Source: Limisphaerales bacterium
GTDB taxonomy: Bacteria > Verrucomicrobiota > Verrucomicrobiia > Limisphaerales > UBA8199
Length of the DNA stretch: 42,637 nt
Assembly: GCA_003152225.1 (NCBI GenBank)
Contig: PLZQ01000090.1
Coordinates: 1,502 to 44,138 of the forward strand
Direction: 5' to 3'
Part shown: positions 8,794 through 40,824 of the stretch, piece after piece
How positions within the stretch are numbered: position 1 is the stretch's first letter
How the letters are laid out: every line of letters begins with the position of its first letter
Translations under genes and position numbers: made by a program
Notes under the pieces: generated by a model
Told to the model about the DNA's origin: nothing
Database searches by the model: none
The model's input: the letters and a program-made list of their open reading frames with translations, nothing else

Positions 8794-8858
8794 CCGTGGC
8801 GTCCGAGGGATGCGAGTGCGACATCTCCCAGCGGCGCATTGAGAAGAATGCGAGGTAT

Positions 8859-8968
8859 AAGGGATAAACAAGGGAAGTACAAGGGTTATACAAGGGATAG
8901 TTAAGGGATCAACAGGCTCGCAACACGCTCACAACACCAGAGCAATACCGGAGCAACACGCTCTCCCC
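8859..8968. repeat. Degenerate 11-bp-period array A
   Basis: Ten consecutive units of exactly 11 bases. The first five share AAGGG (AAGGGATAAAC, AAGGGAAGTAC, AAGGGTTATAC, and so on); the next five drift to AGGCTCGCAAC, ACGCTCACAAC, ACCAGAGCAAT, ACCGGAGCAAC. The period is not a multiple of three and no gene covers it. It lies between the GH13 stop and the VCBS-epimerase gene. Confidence 0.8.
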
Positions 8969-16898: not shown

Positions 16899-19800
16899 TC
16901 AACTGCCGGGCGGGGGTAAAGTCCCTTCATAATACCGGGCGCGGTAAAAGCGGCGCGCCCGCCAGCCTGACTCCGGGTCACCGAAGAGGACCACTCCACC
17001 GCTGGTCATCACGTTGGTTAGAACGGGAATCCATTGCGCGAGGTTAGTCGAGGCCTCGATCACTACAGCCTGGCCCGGCACAGCACTGATGTTGAACCAG
17101 AATTGGTTCGAGCAGCATCCGGCGGCGGACAGCTCCGGGCGGAGTTGCACGCGACTTTCAACAAACCAGCTTGAGCCGTTGTAGTACCCGGCACCGGCGA
17201 CGAAACCTCGCGCACGGATCGTATAGTCAGGTGGCACAGAAACATTGGTCACCTGCCAGCCACCAGGGATACGCGTCCCCTGCCCTGCGCTAACCCAGTT
17301 CGTGCCGTCGCGTGAAGTCTCGAAGGACGTGCGCCAAACCTCCGGGCCGCTTCCGGACCGCAGCCATGTAATATTTGAGCCATCGAAGGTCAGCATTTGG
17401 CCTGCAGAATCGGGGTTTCCCAATCGCCCGAGGTCAACCCGCAGTTGCCCGCCGAGGGTCGCAAAAAGGCCCCCGACAAGAATCCTGCCGTCAGGTTGTA
17501 CGGCAAAGGTGTTTACCGTGTTGTCGGCTGCGGGATCGAATGTGCTGTCCAGCGAGCCATCCAGGTTGAGCCGCCCGAGCCGGCTGCGGGCCTGTCCCCC
17601 CAACATCGTGAAATTCCCTCCCGCCAGAATGGTTCCGTCGGTCTGAATCGCCAACGCCTTTACGACATCGTTAGCTCCGGGGTTGAACGCGTTGTCCAGG
17701 GTGCCGTCGCTATTGAGCCGGCCGATGTAGCTGCGGGCTTGACCGCACAAGTTCGTGAACGCACCGCCGACCAGGATCTTGCCATCGGTCTGCAGCGCGA
17801 GGCAATACACCATCCCGTCGGCGTCCGGGTTAAATCCCGTATCCAGGGAGCCGTCGGCGTTGAGCCGGCCGATGTGGCTGCGGGCTTGCCCATCCAAGTT
17901 AGTGAAGCCGCCGCAGGCCAGAATCTTACCATTCGGTTGAGCCGCCAGGAGCAGCACGATGTAATTGGCGTCCGGTTTGAAGTCAGGGTCGAGTGTGCCG
18001 TCGGCATTGAGCCGGGCAATGGTGTAACGCGTCTGGCCGCCCACCGTCGTGAAACCACCACTTATGAGGGTTTTGCCGTCGGCCTGCGGCAGCAAACAAC
18101 TCACCCAGCCATTCGCTCCCAGAGTGAATGGCGCGTCCAGCGTGCCATCGTAATTGAGCCGGCCATAAAAAGGCTGAGACTGGCCGGCGAGTGAAAGGAA
18201 TGCGCCTCCCACCAGGATCCGGTTGTCCGGCTGCACGGCAAAACAATAAACGCCGTCATTGCCGACAGCCGAAGGAGCGAACGCAGAATCTAATGTCCCA
18301 TCGGCATTGAGCCGTCCCATACAAGTGCGCGGCTGAGCCCCTAGTGTGGAGAAATTGCCGCCCACCAGGATCTTGCCGTCCGCTTGAACGGCCACCGTCT
18401 GCACACTCACGTTGGCGCCTGGATTGAATGAGTCCACGGTTGCCAGGTTCACCGTCAACATCGCCACCGCGCTTGTCACACTGCCAAAGCTGCTGTCGAT
18501 CAACACCTCGTAAAGGCCGGCATCGGGCCGCTGCGCATTGGTCACCACCAACGTTGTCGTGGTGGCCCCTGGCAAGGGGACACCGCTCTTGCGCCACTGG
18601 TAGCTCGGTGCGGTGCCTGCGGCGGCAACGCTGAATGAGGCTGTTTGCCCCGGACTTACCTTTTGGCTCGCCGGCTGGCTGGTGACGCACGGGTCGGCGA
18701 CGCTCAGAGTGGCCACCGCACTGGTCACACTGCCCAGCGAATTGCTGGCGGTGGCCCAGTAACCACCCATCTCCCCGCCCAACACATTACTTAACGTTAG
18801 CGTCGCCGTGTAGGCCCCGGAAATGTTACCCCCGTCATCCAGCACCGCTGCTCCCTTGTGCCATTGCCAGGTCAAGGGCGCTGTGCCCGCCACCGGAGCG
18901 GTGAACGTGGCGGTTGTGCCGGCGTTATTCGTGCGGCTCCTTGGTTGGTTGCTAAGATATGGATCCACGGTGCTCAAAGTGGCAACCAGGCTCGTCACGC
19001 TGCCGTAGGCATTCGTGATGACAACCCAATACCGGGCCGCATCCGCGCCCAGGACATTGCGCACGGCCAAGCTCGAGCTTCGCGCGCCCGAGATGTTCCC
19101 TCCGTCGCTCAGGGCCACCCCGTCCTTAAACCATTGGCAGTCGAGCGGCTGGGCGCCGGCGGCTACGACGCTGAACGTCGCCAGGCTGGTTGCATTGTTC
19201 GTGCGGCTGGCCGGCTGCGTTCTGATGGCCGGCGGCCCCTGGCCCGCCTCCACAAACCAACTCGAACCGCCCTCATATCCTGCCGCCACTGAACCCCGTG
19301 CGAAGATCGTGGAGCCGGCGGGCACCGAGTCTGCCGACAGTTGCCAGCCAGCTGGGACGGCCACTCCGCTGCCCAAGCTGATCCAGGAGTTCCCATTGGC
19401 AGAAGCCTCAAACGTGGTTCGCCAGAGCTCCGGGCTGGTACCGTTGCGCAGCCAGGTAATATTGGCGCCATCGTAACCCAGCTCCTGAGTCGCGGGGTAG
19501 GTGTTGTTCAAGCGGGCGAGGCGAGAACGCGACTGTCCTCCGACTGTAGTGAAGTTGCCGCCTGCCAGAATCTTGCCGTCCGCCTGCAACGACAAAGCAT
19601 AAACAACGCCGTTGGCCCCGGGGTTCAAGGTGGTATCCGGCGTCCCGTCGGGATTGAGCCGGGCGATGTATTTCCGGATCTGTCCGCCGATCACGGTGAA
19701 GTTGCCCCCCACCAGAATCTTGCCGTCCGCCTGCAACGCCAGCGAATACACCAGGCTGCTCGCTGCCGGATTGAAGCTGGTATCCAGCGTGCCGTCGCCG

Positions 19801-22800
19801 TTGAGCCGGGCAATATACATACGCGTCTGCCCGCACAGACTGGTGAACGCGCCGCCCACCAGGATCTTCCCGTCCGGTTGAGCCAGCAGGCAATACACAT
19901 TGGTGTTGGCTCCCGGACTGAAGGTCGCGTCCAGCGTGCCCTCGACATTGAGCCGGCCCACATACATGCGGCCCTGCCCACAGAGGTTAGTAAAAGCGCC
20001 ACCCACCAGCACCTTGCCGTCCGGCTGCACCGCCATGGAATATATGATGCCACTGGCCGCGGCATTGAAAGCCGCGTCCAGCGTGCCCTCGGCACTGAGC
20101 CGCCCAATGAAGCCGCGAGCCTGCCCGCACAGGTTAGTGAACGCGCCGCCTATGAGAATCTTGCCGTCTGGCTGGACCGCCACAGAGTTCACGTTGGAAT
20201 TGGGGCTGGGATTGAAGGCGACGTCCAAGGAGCCGTCAGCGTTAATCCGTCCAAGGTAGGGGCGCACCTGCCCACCCACTGTTGAGAAAATGCCTCCGAG
20301 CAAGATTCGACCATCTGTCTGCACGGCCAGGGAGTAGACGGAATCCCCAACGTTGGGATTGAACGCGGTGTCCAGTGTGCCGTCGGGTAGGGCACGTCCA
20401 AGGTTGTAGCGCCCCTGTCCTCCCAGCCCCCAGAAGTCGCCCCCCACAAGGATTTTGCCATCGGTTTGGACGGCGAGGGCATAGACTGGACCATTGGGAG
20501 CCAGATTCAGCGTGTCGAGACTCGCCGGGAATGCCAGAGCGGCGGCGGCACTGGTGCTGCTCCCGTAGGCGTTGCTTACCAGCACCTCGTAATTGCCGCC
20601 GTCGGCCCATTGCACGTTAGTCAAGATCAGTGACGACGCGGTCGCCCCAGGCAGACTTACACCGTTCCTGCGCCACTGGTAGCTGAAGGGTTCTGTCCCG
20701 GCCGCAGTTACCCCGAAGACCACAGTCAGTCCGGCGGTGGTCACCTGGCTGACGGGCTGGAGGGCGATAATTGGATCCACGACGGTCAGGGTGGCCACTT
20801 GGCTGATTATGGCGCCGTAAGCGTTGCTGATCACCACCGAGTATCCCCCCGCGTCGCCCCCGAGCACAGTGCTCAGGGTCAGCACCGATGTTTCTGCCCC
20901 GGAAACGTTGTCACCATTGCTCAGAATGGTCCCGTTTCGGAACCATTGGTACGCCAGTGGTGCTATCCCTGCTCCGACCACGTTGAAAGTCGCCGCAGTT
21001 GCCGCGTTGTTCGTCCGGCTTACCGGTTGGGCAGTGACGGCCGCTGAGCCCAAACTGGTCTCGACCAGCCAGCCTGAGCTGCTCGCGTAGCCTCCAGCAA
21101 CCGAGCCGCGTGCGCGAATAGTGGTGTTAGTCGGCAGGAAAAGATTGGTCACCTGCCACCCATTCGTGATGCGCGTTCCAGCACCCAGACTGAGCCAGTC
21201 CGTGCCGTTGGTGGAGGCATCGAAACTCGTGTGCCAGACATCGGGGCAAGTGCCTCCCCGGTGCCAGGTTACGCTCGAACCATCGAAAGCAAGGTCCTGG
21301 GTCGCGGGTTCAGTATTGTTTAGCCTCCCAAGATTGGTGCGGGTTTGTCCGCACAAGGTTGTGAACTGGCCTCCGACCAGGACCATGCCGTCCTCTTGCA
21401 GAGCCAGAGATAGCACAGTGCTACCGGCACCTGGATTGAACGAGCCATCCAACGCACCATCGGCTGTGAGGCGCCCAAGGTAACTGCGGGTCTGCCCGCC
21501 CAAGGTCGAGAACATCCCGCCGGCTAGCACTCGCCCGTCGGCCTGTAACGCCAGGGAGTTAACGCCGCCGTTGGCTCCCGGATTGAAGGCGAGGTCCAGG
21601 GTGCCATCCGTATTCAAACGTGCTATGTAGTTGCGCGCCTGTCCCCCGATTGTGGTAAAGCTGCCTCCCGCCACGATCCTCCCGTCCCCTTGCACGGCCA
21701 GACAGTAAACGGTGGCGCTGGCTCCCGGGTCGAAGCTGGCGTCCGCAGTTCCCTCCGCATTGAGACGCCCGATGCGGTTGCGTTTCTGTCCGCCAAGGGT
21801 GCTGAAGAAACCTCCGGCCAAGATCTTGCCGTCCGCCTGCAATGCCAGTGAATAGACCGAGCTGCCGGCCCCCGGGTTAAAGCTGCCGTCCAGTGTCCCG
21901 TCCGCATTGAGACGTGCGATATAGTTACGCGGCTGCCCACCCAGCGAAGTGAAGTCTCCACCCACCACAATCTTGAGGTCCGCCTGCACGGCCAGACAAC
22001 GCACAGTGTTGCTTGCGCCCGGGTTAAAAGCTGCGTCCAGCGTACCATCGGCATTAAGACGCCCGATGTACTTACACGCCTGTCCGCCAAGCCCAGTGAA
22101 CATCCCTCCCACCAGGATCTTGCCGTCCGGCTGCATCGCCAGAGTGCAAACCGTATTGCTAGCGGCGGCGCCAAACGTGGCGTCGAGTGTGCCGTCAGGG
22201 TTGAGTCGGCCTATGTACTTGTGCGTTTGCCCTGCCAGTGCAGTGAAGCTGCCGCCCAACACAATCCGTCCGTCCCGTTGCAACACCGTGGTATTGATAA
22301 AACCGTTCGCAGCGGGGTCTAACGCGTCGGGAGTTATCACGACCAACTTCGCCACCGTGCTGGTCACGCAGCCAAACGCGTTGGATACCAGCACATCATA
22401 GCCGCCTGCCGCAGCCAGTGGCACATTGATCAACTCCAACGACGCGGCGGTCGCCCCATCCAGGGGCGCACCGTCCTTGCGCCACTGGTAACTCAAGGGG
22501 GCGGTGCCCCCGGCTGTCACATCGAACTCAGCCGTTTGTCCAGCGTTGACGAATTTACCACAGGGCTGGACGCTGATGCCCGGGGGGCCAATCATTGTCT
22601 CGACTGGCCAACTTGTGCTGTTTTGTTCCCCCGCTGCGACAAAGCCCAGTGCGCGGAACGTGGAATTTGAAGCAACCGACACACCGGTCAGTTGCCAACC
22701 ACCCGAGATCCGCTCCCCGGCACCCAAGTTGAGCCAATCCGAACCGTTGGTGGAGCATCCAAAGGTCGTGCGCCAGGCTTCGGGCGCGGTGCCGCCCAGC

Positions 22801-24002
22801 AGCCAGGTAATGGTTGATCCGATGTAGCTCAGGCTTTGGGTCGCAGGCTCCGTGTTATAGAGCCGCCCAAGGCAGCTCCGATTCAGCCCGCCCAGCATGT
22901 TGAAGATGCCTCCCACGAGGACCTTTCCATCCGCCTGCAACGCCAGCGCATTCACACCACCCGCTCCTGGGTCGAAGGCGCTGTCCACCGTGCCATCCCC
23001 ATACAGCCGACCAATTCCCAAGCGCGGCTGCCCGCCCAACGTATAGAATGCGCCGGCCACCATTATCTTTCCGTCCGCCTGCTGCGCCATTGACATCACA
23101 TCATAGTCCGCCCCCGGGTTGAAGAGAGAGTCTAGCGTGCCGTTGCTGTTGAGCCGCCCGATATTCGTGCGCGGTTGCCCGCCTAGCGTCGTGAACCGGC
23201 CGCCCACCAGGATCTTTCCGTCCGCCTGGATCGCCAGGCAATACACCCCGGAATAATCTCCCTCCGCCCCGGGGTTGAATTCGCTGTCCAGCGTGCCATC
23301 GGCCTTCAGTCGGCCGATGTGAATACGCGTGGCTCCGCCGAGAGTTGTGAAATCGCCGCCCACCACGATTTTGCCGTCTGGCTGCAACGCCAGGGAATAA
23401 ACGTTAACATCAACTACCGAAGTGAAATTAGTGTCGAGCGTGCCATCAGCATTCAGCCGCCCAACACCGCGCTGCGCTTGTCCGGCCAAGGTGTTGAATA
23501 TCCCCCCTACCAGGATCTTGCTATCCGGCTGCACGATAAGGGACGAAACTCCAGCACCATACCCGCCACTCGCACCCGGATTGAAGGTGGTGTCCGCGGT
23601 GCCATCGGCGTTTAGTCGCCCGAGCAGGCTGCGCGCCGCCCCACCCAGTTGAGTGAAATTGCCTCCTACCAGGATCTTGCCTTCGGCGTCCAGCGCCACG
23701 GAGCCGACGGGGCCGTTGGCTCCGGCGTTGAAACTCCCGTCCAGCGCGCCGTCGGCCTTGAGTCGCCCGAGGTAAGGCCAGGTCTGGCCTGCCAGCCAGG
23801 TAAAATCGCCCCCCACTAAGACTCTGCCATTCGGTTGGACGGCCAGGGCATAAACCCTGGCGGGAGACCCACCACTAACACCAGGATTGAAGTCATCGGG
23901 AGTTTGGGAATAGCCCGGCACGGTCAGGCTAAGCAAGGCGAACGCCAATGAAGCGCAGAACCTGCTTAACCTGTTGGAGCATTGTGCTTTCGCCTTAATC
24001 AT
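16899..24002 (-). CDS. Giant exported delta-60-repeat / Ig-domain protein (four predicted seven-bladed propellers)
   Basis: A 2367-residue secreted or surface protein. A signal peptide covers residues 1-32 (SLAFALLSLTVPGYS). The rest is a regular tandem design. Four blocks each hold exactly seven delta-60 repeats of about 49 residues (core VYSLALQADGKILVGG, then GRLNADGTLD and FNPGA). Each block is followed by an 80-residue module (ITWLRSG, then WRTTFE, WISLGSG). The first three blocks are then followed by one, two and three Ig-like domains (GTAPLSYQWRKDG, then YEVLVSNAYGSV). The C-terminus is a tail with VVIEASTNLAQW. Function is unknown; likely adhesion or polymer binding. ATG 24002 gives the signal peptide; a GTG at 24056 is possible. 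A plausible promoter lies at 24104-24132. Conserved frames throughout show it is under selection. Confidence 0.9.
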   Translation of the reverse strand: MIKAKAQCSNRLSRFCASLAFALLSLTVPGYSQTPDDFNPGVSGGSPARVYALAVQPNGRVLVGGDFTWLAGQTWPYLGRLKADGALDGSFNAGANGPVGSVALDAEGKILVGGNFTQLGGAARSLLGRLNADGTADTTFNPGASGGYGAGVSSLIVQPDSKILVGGIFNTLAGQAQRGVGRLNADGTLDTNFTSVVDVNVYSLALQPDGKIVVGGDFTTLGGATRIHIGRLKADGTLDSEFNPGAEGDYSGVYCLAIQADGKILVGGRFTTLGGQPRTNIGRLNSNGTLDSLFNPGADYDVMSMAQQADGKIMVAGAFYTLGGQPRLGIGRLYGDGTVDSAFDPGAGGVNALALQADGKVLVGGIFNMLGGLNRSCLGRLYNTEPATQSLSYIGSTITWLLGGTAPEAWRTTFGCSTNGSDWLNLGAGERISGGWQLTGVSVASNSTFRALGFVAAGEQNSTSWPVETMIGPPGISVQPCGKFVNAGQTAEFDVTAGGTAPLSYQWRKDGAPLDGATAASLELINVPLAAAGGYDVLVSNAFGCVTSTVAKLVVITPDALDPAANGFINTTVLQRDGRIVLGGSFTALAGQTHKYIGRLNPDGTLDATFGAAASNTVCTLAMQPDGKILVGGMFTGLGGQACKYIGRLNADGTLDAAFNPGASNTVRCLAVQADLKIVVGGDFTSLGGQPRNYIARLNADGTLDGSFNPGAGSSVYSLALQADGKILAGGFFSTLGGQKRNRIGRLNAEGTADASFDPGASATVYCLAVQGDGRIVAGGSFTTIGGQARNYIARLNTDGTLDLAFNPGANGGVNSLALQADGRVLAGGMFSTLGGQTRSYLGRLTADGALDGSFNPGAGSTVLSLALQEDGMVLVGGQFTTLCGQTRTNLGRLNNTEPATQDLAFDGSSVTWHRGGTCPDVWHTSFDASTNGTDWLSLGAGTRITNGWQVTNLFLPTNTTIRARGSVAGGYASSSGWLVETSLGSAAVTAQPVSRTNNAATAATFNVVGAGIAPLAYQWFRNGTILSNGDNVSGAETSVLTLSTVLGGDAGGYSVVISNAYGAIISQVATLTVVDPIIALQPVSQVTTAGLTVVFGVTAAGTEPFSYQWRRNGVSLPGATASSLILTNVQWADGGNYEVLVSNAYGSSTSAAAALAFPASLDTLNLAPNGPVYALAVQTDGKILVGGDFWGLGGQGRYNLGRALPDGTLDTAFNPNVGDSVYSLAVQTDGRILLGGIFSTVGGQVRPYLGRINADGSLDVAFNPSPNSNVNSVAVQPDGKILIGGAFTNLCGQARGFIGRLSAEGTLDAAFNAAASGIIYSMAVQPDGKVLVGGAFTNLCGQGRMYVGRLNVEGTLDATFSPGANTNVYCLLAQPDGKILVGGAFTSLCGQTRMYIARLNGDGTLDTSFNPAASSLVYSLALQADGKILVGGNFTVIGGQIRKYIARLNPDGTPDTTLNPGANGVVYALSLQADGKILAGGNFTTVGGQSRSRLARLNNTYPATQELGYDGANITWLRNGTSPELWRTTFEASANGNSWISLGSGVAVPAGWQLSADSVPAGSTIFARGSVAAGYEGGSSWFVEAGQGPPAIRTQPASRTNNATSLATFSVVAAGAQPLDCQWFKDGVALSDGGNISGARSSSLAVRNVLGADAARYWVVITNAYGSVTSLVATLSTVDPYLSNQPRSRTNNAGTTATFTAPVAGTAPLTWQWHKGAAVLDDGGNISGAYTATLTLSNVLGGEMGGYWATASNSLGSVTSAVATLSVADPCVTSQPASQKVSPGQTASFSVAAAGTAPSYQWRKSGVPLPGATTTTLVVTNAQRPDAGLYEVLIDSSFGSVTSAVAMLTVNLATVDSFNPGANVSVQTVAVQADGKILVGGNFSTLGAQPRTCMGRLNADGTLDSAFAPSAVGNDGVYCFAVQPDNRILVGGAFLSLAGQSQPFYGRLNYDGTLDAPFTLGANGWVSCLLPQADGKTLISGGFTTVGGQTRYTIARLNADGTLDPDFKPDANYIVLLLAAQPNGKILACGGFTNLDGQARSHIGRLNADGSLDTGFNPDADGMVYCLALQTDGKILVGGAFTNLCGQARSYIGRLNSDGTLDNAFNPGANDVVKALAIQTDGTILAGGNFTMLGGQARSRLGRLNLDGSLDSTFDPAADNTVNTFAVQPDGRILVGGLFATLGGQLRVDLGRLGNPDSAGQMLTFDGSNITWLRSGSGPEVWRTSFETSRDGTNWVSAGQGTRIPGGWQVTNVSVPPDYTIRARGFVAGAGYYNGSSWFVESRVQLRPELSAAGCCSNQFWFNISAVPGQAVVIEASTNLAQWIPVLTNVMTSGGVVLFGDPESGWRARRFYRARYYEGTLPPPGS
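17396..18402 (-). repeat. Delta-60 block 4 (seven repeats)
   Basis: Seven consecutive repeats from VQTVAVQADGKILVGG to FAVQPDGRILVGG. This block is the most diverged, with changes such as LISGGF and ILACGGF. It is followed by the 80-residue module and the C-terminal tail rather than by Ig domains. Confidence 0.8.
19485..20486 (-). repeat. Delta-60 block 3 (seven repeats)
   Basis: Seven repeats from VYALAVQTDGKILVGG to ALSLQADGKILAGG. Repeats three to five share the variant NLCGQ or SLCGQ, a sign of recent duplication inside the block. Three Ig domains follow. Confidence 0.8.
21298..22296 (-). repeat. Delta-60 block 2 (seven repeats)
   Basis: Seven repeats from TVLQRDGRIVLGG to LALQEDGMVLVGG. 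Two Ig domains follow. Confidence 0.8.
22836..23857 (-). repeat. Delta-60 block 1 (seven repeats)
   Basis: Seven repeats from VYALAVQPNGRVLVGG to ALALQADGKVLVGG, starting soon after the signal peptide. One Ig domain follows. Confidence 0.8.
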
Positions 24003-24103
24003 ATCGAGCACCAATGAAGGCCCGCTGCGTTTGACACTACTAACCTGATGGCCCACCTTGAGCTTGAATCGAGCAGATGTCCAGATTAATCCTCCAGCAA
24101 TTC

Positions 24104-24132: not shown

Positions 24133-24285
24133 GAAACACACAATCCCTCGTGTTGTGCGCGCTGCCCTTGAACTGCCTTCGCTGGACTGCCCTCGCTCCG
24201 GCAACATCGATCTTCATGCCTTGGACTGCCCCCGCGCCAAAATCACACACCAGCCTGGCCCTGCCATGATCAAGGGCGGTTACGG

Positions 24286-24450
24286 CCACCCCGAGGCCAC
24301 CCCGAGGCCACCCTGAAGCCACCCTGAAGCCACCCTCAGGCTATCTGGTGGCTAACCGGTAGGCACCCTGAAGCCACCCCGAGGCTACCCTGAGGCTACC
24401 CTGAGGCTACCCTGAGGCTACCCCGAAGCCACCCTGAGGCTACTGGGATG
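24286..24450. repeat. Degenerate 11-bp-period array B
   Basis: Fifteen consecutive 11-base units in strict register, alternating CCACCCTGAAG, CCACCCCGAGG and CTACCCTGAGG, with two diverged units in the middle (CTATCTGGTGG, CTAACCGGTAG) and a diverged last one. No gene covers it. The remainder of the 24003-24558 spacer holds the promoter above and no other feature I can support. Confidence 0.85.
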
Positions 24451-32001: not shown

Positions 32002-32071
32002 CGCCGCTCCCTAACTCTGACCCCGCACGGCCTTTGCCAAAGTCGCCGACCTGTCCCGACGGCACAGGCAT

Positions 32072-32190
32072 GGACTGCGGCGGCAAGCGAAGCGCGACGC
32101 CGCTTTGGATAAGGGTGGCGCAGACGGATGCATCAGGGAGTAGCTACGGCCAGGAAAAGCGGCGTCGCGCTTCGCTTGCCGCCGCAGTCC
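32072..32190. repeat. Perfect 35-bp inverted repeat with 49-base loop
   Basis: The left arm 32072-32106 begins GGACTGCGGCGGCAAGCG and ends GACGCCGCTTT; 32156-32190 is its exact reverse complement. One more base pair (32071/32191) can form, then GCAT/ATGC with a one-base bulge. As RNA it would be a very stable hairpin. It lies in the spacer between the symporter and the mutarotase gene. I read it as a REP/MITE-like mobile palindrome. Confidence 0.88.
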
Positions 32191-32280
32191 AATGCGACTC
32201 TGCCAGCGGCCGTTTTGGACCCGATATGGCAGATTGATCAGGCTTCCCTGATGACCAGACCAATTGATAACCTGCCCGAT

Positions 32281-32685: not shown

Positions 32686-34034
32686 ACCTGCATATGAGAC
32701 TCCTGCTGTTGGCCGCCGCTCTGTCGTGCGGCCTGTCGCTGAACGCCGCTGAGGCAAGATCCACCGAGGCCGCTGCCGGGGCGCCTCCTGCCGCCGAACG
32801 CATCGAATGGTGGCGCGAGGCGCGGTTTGGGCTGTTCATCCACTGGGGGCCGGTGAGCCTCAAAGGCACCGAGATCGGCTGGTCGCGCGGCGGCGAGCGG
32901 CGCGGATACAAGTCGCACGGCACGGAGATCCCGATTGAGGTCTATGACAATCTCTACAAGCAATTCAACCCCACCAACTTCAACGCGGATGCGTGGGTGG
33001 CCACCGCGAAGGCCGCGGGCATGAAGTACCTCGTCTTCACCAGCCGGCATCACGATGGGTTCAGCGAGTTCGACACCCAGGCGGACGATTACAAGATTAC
33101 CTCACCCGAAAGCCCATTCCGCCGCGACGTGGTGAAGGAACTGGCTGACGCCTGCCACCGCGCCGGGCTCCGCTTCGGCCTCTACTACTCGCAGCCGAAT
33201 TGGCATCACCCGGATGCCTTCACCGACCGGCATACGAACTACCTCGCCTTCCTGAAGACGCAGGTGCGCGAACTGCTGACCCACTACGGCCCGGTGGACA
33301 TTCTCTGGTTCGACGGCCTGGGCAAGAGCGCCGAAGACTACGACGCCGAGGCGCTGAACACTATGGCCCGCAAACTAAAGCCGCGCATTCTCATCAACAA
33401 CCGCGACGGCCTGGCGGAGGATTTCGACACCCCCGAACAGGAAATCGGCAAGTTCCAGAACGACCGCCCGTGGGAGAGTTGCATCACGATCTGCAACCAG
33501 TGGGCCTGGAAACCGGGCGACGAGATGAAGTCCCTCCCGCAATGCCTGGAAACGCTCGTCCGCTGCGCGGGCGGGGACGGCAACCTGCTGTTCAACGTCG
33601 GCCCCATGCCGGACGGCCGGATCGAGCCGCGCCAGGTCAGGCGCCTGGAGGAGATGGGTGATTGGCTCCGAAAATATGGCGAGAGCATCTACGGCACGCG
33701 CGGCGGGCCCTGGAAGCCCACCAAGTCCCTCGCCAGCACGCGGCAGGGCAACAGCATTTACCTGCACCTGCTCGATTGGAATGGCCGAACGGTCACCCTT
33801 CCCGACATTCCCCGGACAATCATCGGCAGCTTCGTGCTGACCGGCGGCACCGCCCGAGTAGCCCAGGACGGGCGCAAGCTGACGATCCGCATCGATCCCC
33901 CATCCGCGCGCCCGCCGGACCACGGCGCCGCGCTGCTGCTCCGGCAGGGACCCAGCCGCTCAACCCAGCCGCAAATCGACTGCATTGTGAGGCTCGATGT
34001 GAACGGCTCGGCGATGGACCTGGAGCCGCGCTGA
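32682..34034 (+). CDS. Exported alpha-L-fucosidase (GH29)
   Basis: A 450-residue exported glycosidase. A signal peptide covers about residues 1-23 (MRLLLLAAALSCGLSLNAAE). The barrel carries WWREARFGLFIHWGPVSLKG, then YLVFTSRHHDGFSEFDT, FGLYYSQPNWHHP and the nucleophile D211 in VDILWFDGLG. Next comes DGNLLFNVGPMPDG, followed by a C-terminal beta domain. It removes terminal L-fucose from glycans, for example algal fucans or mucin-like sugars; the exact linkage is unknown. The start overlaps the stop of the mutarotase lipoprotein. A second ATG four codons later would also give a good signal. A degenerate 11-bp array begins about 60 bases after its stop. Confidence 0.9.
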   Translation: MNLHMRLLLLAAALSCGLSLNAAEARSTEAAAGAPPAAERIEWWREARFGLFIHWGPVSLKGTEIGWSRGGERRGYKSHGTEIPIEVYDNLYKQFNPTNFNADAWVATAKAAGMKYLVFTSRHHDGFSEFDTQADDYKITSPESPFRRDVVKELADACHRAGLRFGLYYSQPNWHHPDAFTDRHTNYLAFLKTQVRELLTHYGPVDILWFDGLGKSAEDYDAEALNTMARKLKPRILINNRDGLAEDFDTPEQEIGKFQNDRPWESCITICNQWAWKPGDEMKSLPQCLETLVRCAGGDGNLLFNVGPMPDGRIEPRQVRRLEEMGDWLRKYGESIYGTRGGPWKPTKSLASTRQGNSIYLHLLDWNGRTVTLPDIPRTIIGSFVLTGGTARVAQDGRKLTIRIDPPSARPPDHGAALLLRQGPSRSTQPQIDCIVRLDVNGSAMDLEPR

Positions 34035-34092: not shown

Positions 34093-34202
34093 GAGTGCTT
34101 TAGGGTGGCTTTGGGGGAGCTTTGGGGACGCATTGAGGTGGCTTTGGGGTCGCAATCGGTTGGCTATCAACAGGCTTTGGGGTGGCTTTGGGTGGCTTTG
34201 CC
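34093..34202. repeat. Degenerate 11-bp-period array C
   Basis: Ten units of 11 bases: GAGTGCTTTAG, GGTGGCTTTGG, GGGAGCTTTGG, GGACGCATTGA and so on, with the consensus GGTGGCTTTGG kept in several and a one-base slip at the end. Its reverse complement (CCAAAGCCACC) resembles the CTGAAGCCACC phase of array B. The rest of the 34035-34390 spacer shows nothing else that I can support. Confidence 0.83.
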
Positions 34203-34390
34203 AGGCACGGCTTTCCGGCTCTCCAGGATGCGTGATTCTCACGCATCCGCCGCATGTTCAACAGGTGTTGTTTCTTCCGTGCCCATCGTCTGAGCCACCT
34301 CCTTGGCGCCCGCTGCCCGGATGTCAGCCCGAAGAGCGACACCCTCGGAAATGGATTGGATTCTCTTTCGACCCTGGCGATGATCCGCCC

Positions 34391-40636: not shown

Positions 40637-40824
40637 AACCACAGATGGACACAGATAAACACAGATAAGGATTGCCCGATATCGCTCTTTGCCTTGGCGG
40701 GAATCCGTTCACCGGCTAGCGACCCTACTCGAGCCAAGCCAACACCGGAGTCCAGCCTTCAGAATCTGTGTTCATCTGTGTTCATCTGTGTTCATCTGTG
40801 TTCATCTGTGTTCATCTGTGGTTG
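40637..40824. repeat. 10-bp-period tandem repeats in inverted orientation
   Basis: The left arm has three 10-base units (ACAGATGGAC, ACAGATAAAC, ACAGATAAGG; 40641-40670). The right arm has five exact copies of TTCATCTGTG (40771-40820), preceded by a partial one at 40764. The arms are complementary, including AACC/GGTT at the outer ends, so the 90 bases between them can be looped out. I have the impression of similar repeats in many environmental genomes. The right arm overlaps the end of the M48 gene and supplies its stop codon. Confidence 0.88.

Follow-up and report, generated by a model that had tools for sequence, protein, structure and literature searches.

An 11-bp array of a lake Verrucomicrobia genome belongs to a dispersed, non-coding repeat family confined to one genus

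The window, the whole stretch of 42,637 nucleotides analysed here, belongs to the draft genome of a lake Verrucomicrobia (G000; 8.38 Mb in 563 contigs, about 90% complete, 5.9% contamination) and shows three tandem arrays with a period of 11 bp, named A, B and C. Array C (34094-34203, plus strand; delimited by TRF, unit phase and the profile alignment of its locus, L009) contains 10 units of 11 bp with the consensus GTGGCTTTGGG, the G-rich strand being the plus strand; on the reverse complement the units are CCAAAGCCACC, as the sequence-only reading had written them. It lies between an alpha-L-fucosidase gene, which ends at 34034, and an ORF with HEAT repeats whose start codon is unproven. TRF calls the array at 34097-34200 with a period of 11 bp, 9.5 copies, 68% matches and a score of 75, at lag 11 the identity amounts to 0.62 (harmonic of 0.59 at lag 22), and none of 2000 dinucleotide shuffles reaches 0.62, which establishes it as a real 11-bp array. 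Its conserved core, GTCGCAATCGG TTGGCTATCAA CAGGCTTTGGG, occupies 34149-34181 (plus strand) and was delimited by genome-wide core matches and identity across loci. 3' to this core, in the direction of the G-rich strand, lies a hairpin, GGATGCGTGATTCTCACGCATCC (34226-34248, with the 19-bp hairpin itself at 34228-34246; fold z of -2.85), which is a dispersed repeat linked to C arrays, followed by a remnant of a post-hairpin block, TCGCCGCGTGTTCACTAGGTGTTG (34248-34270, plus strand), recognised as the start of another 11-bp array in a by-eye alignment of hairpin flanks. This block is short at array C, and a fuller version trails the hairpin in other G000 copies. A protein-coding role was rejected, since the arrays lie between predicted genes and three of the six frames of C contain stops. 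An RNA element was rejected because the only Rfam match in the window is a tRNA and the arrays fold no better than shuffles (z of -0.68 and 0.76), and a G-quadruplex because the G3+N1-7 x4 motif is absent from A, B and C and was found in 11 of 44 and 4 of 57 scanned segments.

The window contains three further repeated stretches. Positions 32002-32278, 277 bp right after the stop codon of a sodium:solute symporter gene, hold a long inverted repeat (GGACTGCGGCGGCAAGCGAAGCGCGACGCCGC...) and are missing at the orthologous place in the other genome of the genus, where the flanks abut; a similar hairpin is next to a helicase-like gene of that genome (L161). A perfect 10-bp array, ATCTGTGTTC (40764-40820, 5.7 copies), has a shorter inverted partner, CACAGATAAA (40640-40668), about 100 bp away, and similar sequence is present in L115. 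A minus-strand ORF of 2385 aa (16899-24056) contains 147-bp DNA repeats (49 residues) grouped in at least three places.

Array B (24284-24440, minus strand) has the unit GGCTACCCTGA on the plus strand and TCAGGGTAGCC on the minus strand, and was assigned, as a subfamily, to the same family as C by TRF, by its similarity to the reverse complement of C and by genome-wide matches. Its core (24339-24369, minus strand), which reads GGCTATCTGGTGGCTAACCGGTAGGCACCCT on the plus strand, corresponds to the core region of C in the alignment of B with the reverse complement of C. This alignment gives a local score of 39, against 26 at most in 500 dinucleotide shuffles, and the score was reached in four of 500 permutations of unit columns; both arrays show a common centre, AGCCAACCGAT.G.ACC-like, on opposite strands. 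Array A (8855-8960, plus strand; TRF) has the unit ACAAGGGATNN and belongs to a separate small family with few loci in both genomes of the genus. Its similarity to C is marginal (score of 22 against a shuffle maximum of 21, in one of six comparisons), and A was therefore left out of the family. The sequence-only reading had proposed three arrays of the same period, two of them with a common core on opposite strands; this stands for B and C, which share their centre; A shares the period.

The genus was sampled with two genomes, G000 and a second draft, G001, matched to the MAG record 'Verrucomicrobia subdivision 3 bacterium Ki1-2-7m_bin-117'. A genome search with the array units had been named beforehand as the test of a spreading family, and it was carried out with two units and up to three mismatches for C, the reversed pattern serving as control. 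The C motif was found at 265 places of G000 (134 forward, 131 reverse; zero and one in the control) and at 89 places of G001 (45 and 44), while 56 further genomes from the family and order have zero to four places per strand, about the control level. The motif of two B units was found at 327 places of G000, with zero to one in the controls of the two motifs, and at none of G001. The core GTCGCAATCGGTTGGCTATCAACA occurs, identical or nearly so, at 47 places of G000, with no control match. In a collection of 84,980 species, which may omit the window's own record, a degenerate core pattern matched 45 stretches, all in the MAG Ki1-2-7m_bin-117; the same pattern matched no viral contig, and a phage origin was rejected on this ground. 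Arrays B and C are thus members of one dispersed non-coding repeat family with a common core, present on both strands and on many contigs and confined to one genus. The search returned far more than the arrays of the window, and the resemblance of B to C exceeds that of random 11-mers, so that the suggestion of a family that spreads held up against both outcomes that would have spoken against it.

The C-type element consists, in order, of a variable number of 11-bp units, a conserved core of about 33-55 bp and two to four further units, often followed by the hairpin and additional 7-bp or 11-bp arrays. In an alignment anchored on the core (39 loci of G000 and 50 of G001), the central unit is 96% identical within G000, 93% within G001 and 82% between the species, and the identity of the two units that flank it is about 0.8 and decays outward. 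The element is polar: its right side stops after two to four units and its left run varies, the left units, compared by position, being no more alike than random units. Positions 4-5 (GC) and 7-8 (TT) of the unit are strongly conserved, the former partly by construction because the profile units had been selected for GC there. Each species has its own core type, CGGTTG[G/C]CTATCAACA in G000 and mostly CGCCTGGCTAGCAACACG in G001, with minor subfamilies such as CAGTTGGCTATCAACAGGCCTTG; linkage of the G/C variant of the G000 core to the next base, as expected of subfamilies, was not significant (p = 0.12). A stem GTTG-GCTAT-CAAC within the core was rejected as a structure, since it is not kept in the sister's core, CCTGGCTAGCAAC. 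By profile alignment the elements measure 64-171 bp in G000 and 49-239 bp in G001, lengths that may be biased because short-read assembly breaks or collapses repeats and many arrays lie at contig ends. Their ends occur in several unit phases, with TCC|AGGCTTTG and GCCCC|GGGGTGGC as favoured left ends. The arrays sit in mosaics with 7-bp arrays (ATTCTGC, TTTCAGC and TTCAAGG types) and other modules, and the order of core, downstream units, 7-bp blocks and hairpin repeats across copies. The hairpin, 19 bp of the form ATGCGTGA-NNN-TCACGCAT, is present 31 times in G000, 12 times in G001 and never in the control. Of the 31 G000 copies, 12 have a listed core no more than 600 bp away, where 1.1 are expected counting intergenic DNA only (P of about 4e-10); these 12, as well as 10 of the 12 G001 copies, invariably lie 3' to the core in the direction of its G-rich strand.

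Direct evidence of length change comes from two locus comparisons. The duplicate loci L098 and L210 of G001, whose flanks are 84% and 92% identical, have identical cores but a length difference of exactly 77 bp, or seven units, which lies on the variable side. L116 of G000 and L106 of G001, the one clear orthologous pair, have 88% identical flanks, a common left boundary and runs that differ by exactly 11 bp. Since the differences are exactly 11 and 77 bp, array length changes in whole units. In G000 the similarity between units is higher for adjacent than for distant ones; in G001 a unit resembles the next but one more than its direct neighbour, a sign that 22-bp dimers are amplified. Eight loci of G000 were compared by eye with G001, the flanks being too diverged for breakpoints or lying at contig ends. 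Apart from the orthologous array of L116, L010 and L027 show differently composed arrays beside the same gene, and L028, L031, L034, L043 and L057 show no array beside the orthologous gene. Among these ordinary C copies, with the same limits of flanks and contig ends, neither a clean empty site nor a target duplication was found; insertion boundaries are not demonstrable in the sister genome because its intergenic DNA has turned over too far.

Other short-period families are present in both genomes. In 250 kb of G000 contigs picked by number there are five period-11 and four period-7 arrays, in a G000 sample selected for C there are 19 and nine, and in the G001 sample 14 and 11, a rate inflated because this sample was chosen around C-type matches. 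Other genera of the family contain no period-11 and three period-7 arrays in 571 kb, and shuffled sequence contains almost none of either. The GGAACAATCGA family, without similarity to B and C, occurs at 83 and 98 places (none in the control); it is similarly common in G000 and G001 and has the same unit sequence in both, unlike B/C. Its locations include contigs C16, C18, C239 and C274 of G000 and C845, C188 and C670 of G001, among others. Arrays of GTACGGATGGT are also present, in some cases joined in phase to a C array. Both species carry a dispersed repeat of about 200 bp with 11-bp units of the CCCTGGACATA type, its sequence being 78-81% identical between them; it was observed at L010:1838-2040, L029:1718-1918 and L116:16594-16792 and in L091 and L180 of G001, and the locus L124 (G000:C203:20001-36132) contains five 7-bp arrays of the CGTGATG/CGTGAAA and ATTCTGC types in about 5 kb. 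With several unrelated 11-bp families here and no period-11 array in the 571 kb of other genera, 11-bp arrays are a habit of the genus, of which B/C is the most expanded family seen in these two genomes. The suggestion that such elements are generated repeatedly therefore also found support, as families without sequence similarity have the same 11-bp period. Purely local generation, in which every array would have arisen in place by slippage from an unrelated seed with no spread, agrees with these many unrelated 11-bp and 7-bp sequences and with the visible duplication of units in place. Against it, one 24-bp core is repeated at 47 places (none in the control), and the copies present core, downstream units, 7-bp blocks and hairpin in a constant order; the shared core refutes it for B/C, and as a general account it is highly improbable, while it may be the first origin of each family.

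Gene calls from a simple codon-usage gene finder place none of 24 period-11 arrays inside a gene. The 20 arrays with genes on both sides lie between co-directional (10), divergent (five) and convergent (five) genes, about the shares of intergenic bases, which argues against a promoter or terminator role. By eye, the arrays of L018, L208 and L193 adjoin stretches resembling parts of IS91-like, IS256-like and IS200-like transposases, so that arrays may mark recombination junctions. Functional protein-binding arrays would be another explanation: a DNA-binding protein, for example a nucleoid protein, would polymerise from the core, the cores would co-evolve with it, and the 11-bp step would set the units on about the same helix face. 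The core identity of 96 and 93% over the 39 and 50 loci beside varying outer units, the conserved GC and TT positions and the period common to several unrelated families fit this explanation, and selection could equally account for how strongly the core is conserved. However, bias in promoter, terminator or gene orientation is absent, arrays of 7 bp, a period out of phase with the helix, are about equally common, presence beside the orthologous gene is not kept in the sister at most loci checked, and there is no candidate protein; we consider it unlikely.

A few arrays are carried inside an element with terminal inverted repeats (TIRs). This element, of about 386 bp at G000:C283:36949-37336 (L245:1949-2337), is bounded by TIRs (TGGTCCCGGTCACAAATCC...), shows the 5-bp duplication CTAAG and holds B- and C-type arrays, so transposition can move arrays. 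Related ends are found in C226, C126 and C82 and in the sister's C567, the latter a relative of 2.3 kb with a 444-aa ORF between matching ends. The arrays could in general be cargo or subterminal repeats of such elements, but hundreds of array places compare with five TIR ends in G000 and two in G001 at up to three mismatches, no such TIRs are seen at arrays B and C of the window, and no transposase was recognised between the ends of the sister copy. The TIR transposon was thus rejected as a general carrier, given the few TIR copies and the array ends in several phases, and this origin is improbable for the family. The dispersed hairpin in fixed orientation to the core recalls a REP-like element moved by a RAYT, an IS200-like tyrosine transposase, and Y1_Tnp genes do exist in both genomes (seven in G000, 17 in G001). 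Nevertheless, the flanks of the 12 Y1_Tnp loci examined contain neither core nor hairpin, fewer than half of the G000 hairpins are near a core and the GTAG/CGTC tag was not seen beside the hairpin, which leaves this the least probable of the explanations.

Array C is probably a single copy of a composite non-coding repeat that is restricted to the genus, multiplies by copying and lengthens by whole units. In this reading, which we favour with moderate confidence, the core and neighbouring units would be copied into other intergenic DNA by a non-autonomous route, through template switching, gene conversion or a putative recombinase acting in trans. The one-sided runs would afterwards grow or shrink, through slippage during replication or unequal recombination among the units. 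Intergenic insertions would seldom damage genes, so copies could build up, and successive bursts could give each species its own core type, with no host function required. Why units of 11 (and 7) bp should be favoured over other lengths is not explained by this reading. A more tentative proposal, which we hold to be rather unlikely, is a new class of mobile repeat, a polar composite element of extendable 11-bp array, core and one-sided hairpin, which dedicated machinery would copy between genes; the 11 bp would be the step of this machinery and the core would co-evolve with it in each species.

The sequence-only reading could assign the arrays to no known class. This holds in part: they fall under the loose STRR/LSSR kind, the long simple sequence repeats of intergenic DNA, and show additional anatomy beyond it. 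Units of 5-11 bp are repeated in tandem beyond chance at many, mainly non-coding loci, and length polymorphism in whole units is present, in two cases only. Such repeats, with 5-11 nt units, are described in cyanobacteria, Burkholderia and Xanthomonas (Mrazek et al., 2007, as reported in PMC4679880), and according to the same source heptamers predominate among the long repeat units of most genomes with many 5-11 nt repeats, which is ascribed to polymerase contacts. The likeness lies in short tandem intergenic units, many loci per genome, a patchy taxonomic range and heptamers, abundant here too; in contrast, here period 11 dominates beside 7, and there is a core at a fixed place, polarity, a linked hairpin and restriction to one genus. 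The TAACTGA direct repeats of marine Beggiatoaceae (PMC4679880) are likewise dispersed intergenic direct repeats of one genome, but their unit is 7 bp, in two to six copies upstream of start codons, and they occur in distant phyla, whereas the repeats described here have 11-bp units in about 5-20 copies, show no preference for start codons and occur in one genus. The G-quadruplex heptamers of Xanthomonas and Nostoc (PMC4692102) are also G-rich tandem repeats enriched in one genome, but the canonical motif is absent from A, B and C of the window and present in a minority of C-type copies. REP/BIME elements with RAYTs share the small dispersed intergenic repeat with a hairpin; here, however, the main body is a direct-repeat array and a link to Y1 transposase genes was not found. 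MITEs and TIR elements resemble the few array copies carried by a TIR element that shows a 5-bp duplication, while most copies here have neither TIRs nor fixed ends. No account of a comparable 11-bp family was found in the literature searched, subscription papers being outside the search. To our knowledge, few bacterial genomes have been described with so many dispersed minisatellite-like arrays that share a common core and a fixed unit length. The species-specific cores of two sister genomes make this family a small natural system for the spread and homogenisation of repeats in bacteria, and the same system bears on why units of 7 and 11 bp outdo neighbouring lengths.
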